From the NCBI GenBank assembly GCA_007123055.1, contig SKSJ01000152.1, positions 1 through 35,188 of the forward strand: 35,188 nucleotides of DNA. The letters run 5' to 3'. Position numbers and translations under genes: made by a program. This document shows positions 10,139 through 17,656 of this stretch, in pieces. The notes beneath the pieces were generated by a model, which saw nothing but the letters and a program-made list of their open reading frames with translations, made no database searches and was not told the origin of the DNA. This stretch comes from Wenzhouxiangella sp. GTDB taxonomy: Bacteria; Pseudomonadota; Gammaproteobacteria; Xanthomonadales; Wenzhouxiangellaceae. Every line of letters starts with the position of its first letter. The first letter of the stretch is position 1.

Positions 10139-11470
10139 TCATCGTGCGATCGAGCGGGCAGCGGCGGCAAATCGGCTGCCACGCTCCTCGAAATCGCGAA
10201 AGTGCGGAAAGCTTGGTGCCCCGGGTGACAGCAGCACCACACTGCCCGGCCGACTGATTTCGTGTGCTGTTTGCACGGCACTCTCGATATCAGCAGCGGC
10301 ATGCACCTCGATCACTTCTGGTCCCAGCGTCTCGTGAAATGACTGCGCAATGTCTTCACCGTTGTCGGGCAGGGTCACCAGCGCCTGCAGTTCGTGTCCG
10401 CGGCACCATTCGACGACCTCCGACCAGTCGGCCGGCCGGGCCAGGCCACCGGCAATCAGCGTGACCGGTTTGTTGCCGACCGCCTGCAGGGCGGCCAGCG
10501 TCGCATGCGGGCTGGTTGCGATGGAGTCGTTGATCCAGCGCAGCCCGCCGCTGTCGGCAACCGGCTCGAGTCGATGCGGCAAGGGCTGAAATCCGGCCAG
10601 CGCGGGCACCAGTTCATCCACCGCAAACCCCAGCAGCATGCACGCCTGAAGGGCAAGCGCCATGTTGTCGAGATTGTGGCGTCCGAGCAGCGGGAGCCTG
10701 CCCGAATCGATCAGCTCCCGTCCTCGCAGTGAGAGACCGTCACCCCGACGCTCGACACAGGGCGCGCGATTACCCGTCACCCGGCCAACGACATCGGCCG
10801 TGGCTTGCATCAAGACCGGGTCACGTCCGTTGACCAGCAGCGGACGCCCCTCGAGCAACCTGGCGATGCGCAGCTTGCTGTCGACATAGTGCGCAAGGCT
10901 TCCGTGCCAGTCCAGGTGCTCGGGGAACAGCCGGGTCATCAGCCCCAGCTCCAGCCGCCCTTCGATATCGGCCAGCTGATAGCTCGACATTTCCAGCACC
11001 ACCAGCGCGGCATCGGTATCCAGGTGGTCGAGCAGGGGGACGCCGATATTGCCGGCCAGCAGCACGTGCTTGCCACCTGACTCGAGCAGATGGGCCAGCA
11101 GCGACGCCGTGGTGCTCTTGCCCTTCGACCCGGTCACGCCGATCACGGGCAGGCCCGCACGCTCGGCAAACCAGATTGAGCCCGGGTTGACGACCTGTCC
11201 GCCCCGCGCGCGGTAAGCGATCAAAGCCGGATGGTCAACCGGCACGCCTGGAGAACGCAGCAGCACATCAAAGGCCTGCAGGCGATCATCGAATGGACCG
11301 GATTGCGACGGCAGGCCCGTCGGCACTTCTCCGCGTTCGACCAGGACCGTCACGTCGGCGTCGGCATGTCGCTCGCGCAGGGCGCGGACCGCGCTTCGCC
11401 CTTCCCGCCCATACCCGAGCACGCCCACCCGGCAGCGGGCCAGGGCGTCAAGCGTGGGCGAGGAGATCAT
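10139..11470 (-). CDS. murD2: MurD-like amino acid ligase, probably MurD2 (UDP-MurNAc-L-Ala--L-Glu ligase)
   Basis: 443 aa Mur ligase with P-loop GVTGSKGKSTTASLLAHLL, LLAGNIGVPLLDHL, VLEMSSYQL; adjacent to murL and overlapping it. Confidence 0.82.
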   Translation of the reverse strand: MISSPTLDALARCRVGVLGYGREGRSAVRALRERHADADVTVLVERGEVPTGLPSQSGPFDDRLQAFDVLLRSPGVPVDHPALIAYRARGGQVVNPGSIWFAERAGLPVIGVTGSKGKSTTASLLAHLLESGGKHVLLAGNIGVPLLDHLDTDAALVVLEMSSYQLADIEGRLELGLMTRLFPEHLDWHGSLAHYVDSKLRIARLLEGRPLLVNGRDPVLMQATADVVGRVTGNRAPCVERRGDGLSLRGRELIDSGRLPLLGRHNLDNMALALQACMLLGFAVDELVPALAGFQPLPHRLEPVADSGGLRWINDSIATSPHATLAALQAVGNKPVTLIAGGLARPADWSEVVEWCRGHELQALVTLPDNGEDIAQSFHETLGPEVIEVHAAADIESAVQTAHEISRPGSVVLLSPGAPSFPHFRDFEERGSRFAAAARSIAR

Positions 11471-15294: not shown

Positions 15295-15429
15295 GGTTTT
15301 CGGGCAGTCTGGAGTTGACGACAAGTTTAATCCCCTACTTGGTAAAAATACAACGCCTGTTGCGATAATTTTTCGGCCCGCCGCCAAACCGTTGTTATTA
15401 TTGAATCCCCCAGCCGTCAAGTGTTGCAA

Positions 15430-16230
15430 ATGCACAACAATCACTGCGTATTGACCATTGCAGGATCGGATTCCTGCGGCGGTGCCGGCATTCAGGCCGA
15501 CCTGAAGACCTTCACCCGGCACGGCATCGAAGGCGCCAGCGTCGTGACGGCCATCACCGCCCAGAACACGGCGGGTGTTACCGCGGTCGAGACGCTGTCA
15601 CCCGGATTCGTGCAGGCCCAACTCGACGCGGTCCTGTCCGACCTGCCAATTCGTGCCGCCAAGACCGGCATGCTGGCCACCGCGCCCATCATCGAAACGC
15701 TGTCCGAGGGGCTGGCTGGACAGCCGACGATCGAACTGGTCATCGACCCGGTCATGGTCGCCACCAGCGGCGCGCGACTGCTCGACCCCGATGCCGAGCG
15801 GGCCCTGATCGAACTTCTGCTGCCGAAAGCCGCCCTGGTCACCCCGAACCTTCCCGAAGCGGCGGCGCTGACCGGACTCCCGGAAGATTCACGGCCCGAA
15901 CAGCTGGCCGAAGCCACCCTGGCCACCGGCTGCGACGCCGTCCTGATCAAGGGCGGTCATGGGCACGGCCGCCGTATCGAAGACCTGCTGGTCACCCCAT
16001 CGGGCCGCAGCACGATTTCGCACGAACGCGTCGATCGACGCATCCACGGCACCGGCTGTGCACTCTCGGCCGCCATCACCGCCCGGCTGGGCCGAGGCGA
16101 AGATCTGGAAGCCGCCACGAAAGCGAGCATCGAATGGTTGCAGCGAATGATTGCCGGCTCCTGGCAACCGCTGAAGGGCGAACTGGCGATGCTGCCGTTC
16201 GGGACTCAAAACGGGAAACGGGAAACGTAA
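15430..16230 (+). CDS. thiD: Hydroxymethylpyrimidine/phosphomethylpyrimidine kinase
   Basis: VLTIAGSDSCGGAGIQADLKTFTRHG, VIDPVMVATSGARLL, VTPNLPEAAALTG, HGTGCALSAAITARLGRG. Confidence 0.95.
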   Translation: MHNNHCVLTIAGSDSCGGAGIQADLKTFTRHGIEGASVVTAITAQNTAGVTAVETLSPGFVQAQLDAVLSDLPIRAAKTGMLATAPIIETLSEGLAGQPTIELVIDPVMVATSGARLLDPDAERALIELLLPKAALVTPNLPEAAALTGLPEDSRPEQLAEATLATGCDAVLIKGGHGHGRRIEDLLVTPSGRSTISHERVDRRIHGTGCALSAAITARLGRGEDLEAATKASIEWLQRMIAGSWQPLKGELAMLPFGTQNGKRET

Positions 16231-16235
16231 AACGG
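16208..16235 (+). repeat. Four tandem 7-bp units (AAAACGG GAAACGG GAAACGT AAAACGG) at the thiD 3' end
   Basis: read directly from the sequence; thiD stop TAA lies at 16228-16230 inside the array. Confidence 0.9.
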
Positions 16236-16253
16236 AGGCGAGCCTATCGCTCT

Positions 16254-16537
16254 TATTAACCCGGCAGGTATGTAGATCGCATTCAGCCGCCGTGTGGCTT
16301 TCGGCAGCAAGGCAGCGAAACGCCTCTGTAGCACTCCTACAGCAAGTTTCGATAACGCAGTCTGCCGAAAGCCACACGGCGGCCTGTTATTTGAAATCAG
16401 CATGTTAGGGGCTTCAAGCAAGGCCCGACTCTGCGTTCTCGCTCTTGCCAATGGAATCACCATTGGCTGCGAGCGACGCCTTGATTCGGACCCTGCTTGA
16501 AGCCCTGAATGTGATCTACATACCTGCCGGGTTAATA
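16254..16537. mobile_element. MITE-like non-coding element with 33-bp terminal inverted repeats and two internal hairpin arms
   Basis: 16254-16286 TATTAACCCGGCAGGTATGTAGATCGCATTCAG vs reverse complement of 16505-16537 (32/33 match); internal perfect 22-bp IR 16286-16307/16362-16383; internal IR 16409-16428/16486-16505 (18/20); no credible ORF. Confidence 0.7.
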
Positions 16538-16613
16538 GTGTTCGATTGGTGGCCAATGGCAGGGCCACGCCGTTGGCCACCGCGTCAAACTAGCGGCCAT
16601 CAGCAATCCCCCA

Positions 16614-16646
16614 TTTTACGTTTTACGTTTTACGTTTTGACGTTTT
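16614..16646 (-). repeat. Tandem 7-bp units (TTTTACG x3, then TTTTGACG TTTT) abutting the idh stop codon
   Basis: read directly; inverted relative to the array at 16208-16235. Confidence 0.9.
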
Positions 16647-17656
16647 CACGGTCCCAACCGCTCGCAGATCGCGTCGGTAAAGCTCTCGGTGGTGCCGTCA
16701 CCGCCCAGGTCCGGGGTCGTGCGGTCGGCTTTCTCGATGACATCGGCAATCGCCTTTCGGATGCGCGTCGCATTCTCGTACTGATCAAGATGCTCGAGCA
16801 TCTGGGCAGCAGCAAGCAGCAGTGCGCACGGGTTGGCGATTCCCCGGCCGGCGATATCCGGCGCCGAACCGTGAACGGCTTCGAACATGGCCGCACGGTC
16901 ACCGATGTTGGCACCGGGCGCGAGCCCGAGCCCACCGACCAGGCCGGCACACAGGTCGGAGAGGATGTCGCCGAACAGGTTGGTGGTCACCATCACATCG
17001 AACTGCTCGGGGCGCATGACCAGCTGCATGCAGGCATTGTCGACGATGATGTCGTTGAACTCGATATCGTCGTAATCGGCCGCCACTTCACGGGCGACAC
17101 TCAGGAACATGCCCGACACATCCTTGAGAATATTGGCCTTGTGGACGGCGGTGACCTTCTTGCGACCGGCACGCCGGGCCAGATCGAAGGCGAAGCGGAG
17201 TACCCGCTCGCAGCCTTTTCGAGTGACCACCATCTTGGATTCGGCGCGACTGCCATCGGGAGCGGTGAACGCACCTTCGGCCAGGTAGGCCCCCTCGGTG
17301 TTCTCGCGCACCGTGATCAGATCGATATCTTCGTAGCGTGAGGCGGTGCCCTTGAAGCTGATCGCCGGCCGGACATTGGCGTACAGGTCGAAATGCTTGC
17401 GCAGCGCCACGTTGAGCGACTTGAAACCACCCCCCACCGGCGTGGTCAGGGGCGCCTTCAGCGCCACCCGGTTGCGCTCGATCGATTCCAGCGTTGCCGC
17501 CGGCAGCAATTCTCCCGTATCTTCCAGAGCAGCCAGGCCGGCGGGCTGAAAGTCATACTCCAGCCCCGCGTTCAGCGTGTCGAGCACGCGAAGCGTGGCA
17601 TCCATGATTTCGGGGCCGATACCGTCGCCCCGAATGACGGTGATTTGCTGCGTCAC
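16646..17656 (-). CDS. NAD-dependent isocitrate dehydrogenase (isocitrate/isopropylmalate dehydrogenase family)
   Basis: [88 protein letters not shown]. Confidence 0.92.

Follow-up and report, generated by a model that had tools for sequence, protein, structure and literature searches.

What kind of element occupies the spacer between thiD and idh in the window (the whole 35,188-nucleotide stretch of Wenzhouxiangella DNA that was analysed), and does its elaborate fold do anything? The element measures 280 bp with TA at each side (16254-16537), and a sequence-only reading had left it between a transposon derivative, a structured RNA and a terminator domesticated between convergent genes. The convergent arrangement of thiD and idh was borne out by profile matches (Table 1). 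As that reading held, no real open reading frame is present: 280 bp is too short for a transposase gene, and the frames listed across the element are mechanical.

The terminal repeats, described earlier as matching at 32 of 33 positions, were recovered by the repeat search at 16254-16286 and 16505-16537 (33 nt, 97%), and the perfect 22-bp inverted repeat of arm 1 at 16286-16307 and 16362-16383 (22 nt, 100%); for arm 2, described as 18 of 20, the search gave 16409-16431 and 16483-16505 (87% over 23 nt). The predicted fold of both strands agreed with the proposed closing stem and two long hairpins, and all of the inner stems named beforehand (GAAAC/GTTTC, CTGTAG/CTACAG and CCAATGG/CCATTGG) were present in it. 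Predicted folding energies were -181.9 and -187.2 kcal/mol for the two strands (z = -17.8 and -17.5), and energies this low were reached in none of 200 shuffles of either strand. The element's repeats are real and lie far beyond chance. Both arms carry the same motif, oriented oppositely, which the sequence-only reading did not mention. A hairpin predicted within the linker was dropped for poor conservation.

Table 1. Features of the thiD-idh element and its neighbours, in window coordinates.
Feature	Position	Strand	Evidence
Left target-site duplication TA	16254..16255	.	G008 empty site without element and with one TA; TA at both sides in 27/35 related copies (paired non-IS elements)
Left terminal inverted repeat TTAACCCGGCAGGTATGTAGATCGCATTCAG	16256..16286	+	Repeat search; TTAACCCGGC end common to intact IS630 elements of G027
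Arm 1, long hairpin with perfect 22-bp basal stem	16286..16383	+	Repeat search, fold; helix 2: both-side changes in 13/25 pairs
Hairpin motif, + orientation (CAAGGC..GCNG..CAA..AACGCNG)	16300..16369	+	R1 57.5 bits, R2 63.9 bits, E 5e-15
Inter-arm linker; IS200 insertion site in one relative's copy (L085)	16384..16408	.	
Arm 2, long hairpin	16409..16505	-	Repeat search, fold; helix 5: both-side changes in 9/20 pairs
Hairpin motif, - orientation	16423..16491	-	R1 71.4 bits, R2 78.2 bits, E 7.5e-19
Right terminal inverted repeat	16505..16535	-	Repeat search
Right target-site duplication TA	16536..16537	.	Empty-site comparison
thiD (HMP/HMP-P kinase), convergent left neighbour	15421..16230	+	TIGR00097, 256 bits, above cut-off
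Isocitrate dehydrogenase (idh), convergent right neighbour	16646..17656	-	NF006529, 578 bits, above cut-off

The suggestion of a TA-duplicating IS630/mariner-type MITE held up, in that the element is multi-copy and dispersed, has TA-flanked copies and is missing from the thiD-idh site of one relative. When an empty site was sought in relatives, the orthologous spacer of G008 was found to read CTCTTGGTGTTGGATT, and the window reads CTCTTA, the element and then TAGTGTTCGATT; the empty site is clean save for single-base differences. Element matches were obtained in 21 of the 101 genomes searched, as dispersed copies, many of them in related Wenzhouxiangella genomes, and the complete genome G018 carries nine full-length copies at different sites. 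Named contigs bearing the window's terminal repeat were from Wenzhouxiangella or Wenzhouxiangellaceae, or from Gammaproteobacteria MAGs without a genus name. Two further copies lie in the window's own draft genome, and since both are cut off at contig ends the element breaks assembly. No match to the window element was found among the plasmids and phages searched, a Salinivibrio plasmid match being a bare terminal-repeat fragment. The element's mobility is well supported, and its identity as a non-autonomous IS630/Tc1-mariner-type MITE is nearly certain.

Some members of the family have a single arm (158-159 bp) and others carry arm deletions; in one, L113, the inner part of arm 1 is inverted. 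In L085 (3001-3777) an open IS200/IS605 transposase frame lies in the MITE linker; as both terminal repeats and TA are kept despite this insertion, the whole 777 bp may still move as a cargo element. In four sequences (L077, L082, L085 and L093) TTAACCC-type MITEs have entered CTAGTGGGCC-type elements, each time close to one particular TA-rich position inside them, which suggests a target preference. In G018 (G018:C1:1270295-1270317; L088, L125) the remnant of a MITE with an internal deletion overlaps the 3' end of thiD, whose stop codon it appears to supply; this insertion is separate from that in the window and lies almost at the same position. Beside the window element, inverted AAACGTA/TTTACGT heptamer-like repeats (16206-16238 and 16608-16640) are independent of the insertion, since similar repeats occur in the empty-site relative G008; a 13-bp inverted repeat, GGTGGCCAATGGC/GCCGTTGGCCACC (16548-16581), adjoins the element, is conserved in G008 and is possibly the native thiD-idh terminator hairpin.

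A candidate source of transposase was found in G027, which holds three 1,108-bp and one 1,096-bp IS630 elements with TTAACCCGGC ends, open transposase frames and, in all four, a TA duplication; its 347-aa transposase scored 234 bits against the IS630 model (NCBIfam, cut-off 100). Another IS630, in G033, has TATTAACCCGGC ends and the same 10 end bases as the window element. Compared with the closest IS630 end (G027), the window's terminal repeat has the same first 10 bases and shares 20 of 23, not all. Because a profile search of the window's own draft genome found no IS630 transposase, we infer transposition in trans: a transposase supplied from elsewhere would recognise the ends, cut the element out and insert it at TA. 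A direct search likewise found no IS630 partner in most of the other motif-rich genomes searched. A terminal repeat adjoining an IS630 gene in Azotobacter was rejected as a partner, being part of a motif-bearing MITE and not of that IS. The intact IS630 elements lack the hairpin motif: L101 gave no R1 match, and where L103 and L120 matched, the match fell outside the IS. In the case of ISY100, insertion by an IS630-family transposase takes place at TA, which is duplicated (PMC2170065). IS630 is described as favouring TA in CTAG (Tenzen and Ohtsubo 1991, as cited in PMC2170065), a preference with which the CTAG-ended group of motif-bearing elements fits, as agreement and not as proof.

The shared motif of about 70 nt has the form CAAGGC-P2-GCNG-P3-loop-P3'-CAA-P2'-AACGCNG, on the + strand in arm 1 and on the - strand in arm 2. 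In a seed set of 13 hairpins, both-side changes occurred in 17 of 21 pairs and 97% of cells were paired, against 33-45% when the alignment was slid; across 52 distinct hairpins the stems vary while the loop bases hardly change. Covariance models of the motif (R1 and R2), which detected the window's two arms with scores of 57-78 bits, were used for wider searches. R1 matched 49 of 101 relatives; R2 matched 104 of 369 sampled Gammaproteobacteria genomes (84 of 272 genera) and 67 of 399 Pseudomonadota genomes, 29 outside Gammaproteobacteria. A weak third match in the window (10527-10603; 20.6 and 15.9 bits) is probably due to chance. Strong matches were also seen in a few viral contigs (L329, L293, L319, L292 and others), so phages or prophages may serve as vehicles for motif-bearing elements.

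The motifs are arranged as mirror-image pairs. Among 80 neighbouring pairs, 75 were +/-, one was +/+ and four were -/+; where tested, no terminal repeat enclosed the -/+ pairs, which appear to fall between adjacent elements. The gap between paired motifs was 35 or 36 nt in 59 of the 80. In 68 resolved elements the motifs lie within terminal repeats, mostly of 30-35 bp, in a total length mostly of 260-290 bp, and the +/- pair is kept in elements outside Gammaproteobacteria (L418 and L416). The terminal repeats themselves are unrelated and fall into end groups (TA-TTAACCC, C-TA-GTG/GTA..., T-TA-CTAA and rarer ones); TCAG, or a sequence close to it, stands at the inner end of most terminal repeats. 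The main end groups are compatible with TA duplication, the empty-site evidence coming from the window element only. Some ends, such as CTAGGGTCTGTTGAC in Azotobacter, are ones we take to resemble IS5-type ends. On named Azotobacter chroococcum plasmids the motif-bearing elements are unannotated.

Compensatory change in the stems was assessed in 18 aligned copies of the window's family. Of 107 pairs, 33 had changed on both sides, with contributions from the closing stem and from both arms; slid controls gave 3-11 such pairs and shuffles a mean of 16, and 33 was reached in none of 500 shuffles. The fold proposed from one sequence is thus matched by compensatory changes across its family.

The strands were then distinguished by their mismatches, an A-C mismatch reading as G-T on the other strand, so that an excess of G-U means that the fold of one strand is under selection. 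For the motif in + orientation (61 motifs below 80% identity), 102 G-U and 17 A-C were counted, an excess that is possibly inflated in part, as the motifs were chosen by a covariance model favouring G-U and the cells are not fully independent. The corresponding ratio was 38:42 in the terminal repeats and 16:11 in the outer stems (Fisher p for the motif, 1e-8 and 0.005, respectively). Taken by itself, the window's own family showed no strand bias, so the one-strand argument draws on the wider set. The excess suggests that selection acts on the fold of a single strand, either as RNA or as single-stranded DNA.

Taken overall, the best explanation, and a probable one, is an IS630-type MITE with a structurally selected hairpin-pair core. 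Structural selection on the core is itself very likely: the folded motif recurs, nearly always mirror-paired, in many differently ended elements, so that the core is probably functional. It would be retained by selection for an activity as a folded single strand. As the first hairpin on either strand is always a + motif, the element should act alike in either insertion orientation. In the preferred reading, the + motif would fold first in read-through transcripts, where a widespread host factor, for which RNA polymerase, a ribonuclease and an RNA chaperone are candidates, would bind it and make insertions tolerable. The structured RNA proposed at the outset gains weight from the conserved motif; that proposal found no counterpart in Rfam, where neither element nor motif matched a family and the best match to an element was to a miRNA model (56.7 bits against a cut-off of 200; L273). 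Action as RNA rather than as single-stranded DNA has about an even chance. Arm loss is common (L161, L027, L165 and L196), so the core is not essential to the survival of every copy.

The closest rival would have the hairpins act as single-stranded DNA, extruded in replication or transfer and recognised by a DNA-binding protein (a transposase accessory, an HUH enzyme or a recombinase), thereby aiding spread. Mirror-image motifs beside each terminal repeat resemble extended transposon ends, their spacing of 35-36 nt is conserved, and DNA also tolerates the G-T wobble; the absence of the motif within intact IS630 elements and the failure to find a cognate protein count against this account, which we regard as possible and rather unlikely.

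An ordinary IS630 MITE with functionless palindromic arms was also considered, in which template switching at quasi-palindromes restores complementarity and common descent alone accounts for the shared motif. The terminal repeats and outer stems co-vary without strand bias, as such correction at the DNA level predicts, and arms are frequently deleted or flipped. Correction fails, however, to explain why non-complementary internal loops are near-invariant across the phylum or why the G-U excess is confined to the motif, and we consider this explanation improbable.

A bidirectional transcription terminator kept between thiD and idh, to which the convergent position and the strong hairpins lend themselves, is very improbable, because there is no U-tract, relatives have convergent thiD-idh without the element, and related copies stand mostly in tandem settings (tandem, convergent and divergent 48:29:17 by crude ORF calls, with no clear bias); the domesticated terminator of the sequence-only reading thus found no support, and a search of 16100-16700 gave no promoter-like site and no terminator-like GC hairpin with a T run after it. 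Identity as an integron attC site or a REP/BIME-type repeat, suggested by the folded repeats, whose stems vary while certain bases are conserved, can practically be dismissed, since the alignment gives no RYYYAAC/GTTRRRY pair at the hairpin ends (the conserved bases being CAAGGC and AACGCNG), and the element has TA-flanked terminal repeats, far exceeds a 20-40 bp REP and is built of units of about 70 nt without a fixed GTAG or CGTC tag.

MITEs are usually defined by their ends and viewed as passive parasites. In its TA duplication, terminal inverted repeats and non-coding nature the present element is like the MITEs of IS630/Tc1-mariner (ISY100, PMC2170065; IS1471-like transposases), and its TTAACCCGGC ends match the IS630 elements of G027 and G033; unlike in those MITEs, a core structure is conserved here across elements with unrelated ends. 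With integron attC sites it shares a folded strand with conserved bases and variable stems, but the core site bases are absent and the elements are dispersed rather than in cassette arrays. We know of no sequence in common between the element and ERIC or Correia/NEMIS. The latter MITEs, of enterobacteria and Neisseria, resemble it in being structured when transcribed and are processed in mRNAs (review, PMC10969869), whereas the motif here has no Rfam family match. REP doublets or REPINs likewise combine two hairpins in opposite orientation in a dispersed, non-autonomous unit, but they are defined by a GTAG/CGTC tag, and the present element is far longer, with TA-flanked terminal repeats and conserved internal loops (PMC3116915). 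The motif was not found in open-licence full texts on MITEs, REPs and REPINs, and ISfinder or subscription journals could contain descriptions of it. As far as could be found, a conserved two-motif core under unrelated ends is undescribed, the MITE type itself being known.

The same folded core under unrelated ends across Gammaproteobacteria and beyond implies that the core serves the element or the host in some way. More tentatively, and with somewhat less than an even chance, the core may define a phylum-wide mobile superfamily of mirror-image structured RNA or single-stranded DNA modules with many ends, borrowed transposases and a conserved host partner. The motif is short, and a covariance model of it works; many repeats and contig breaks that lack annotation in proteobacterial genomes would also be labelled by it.
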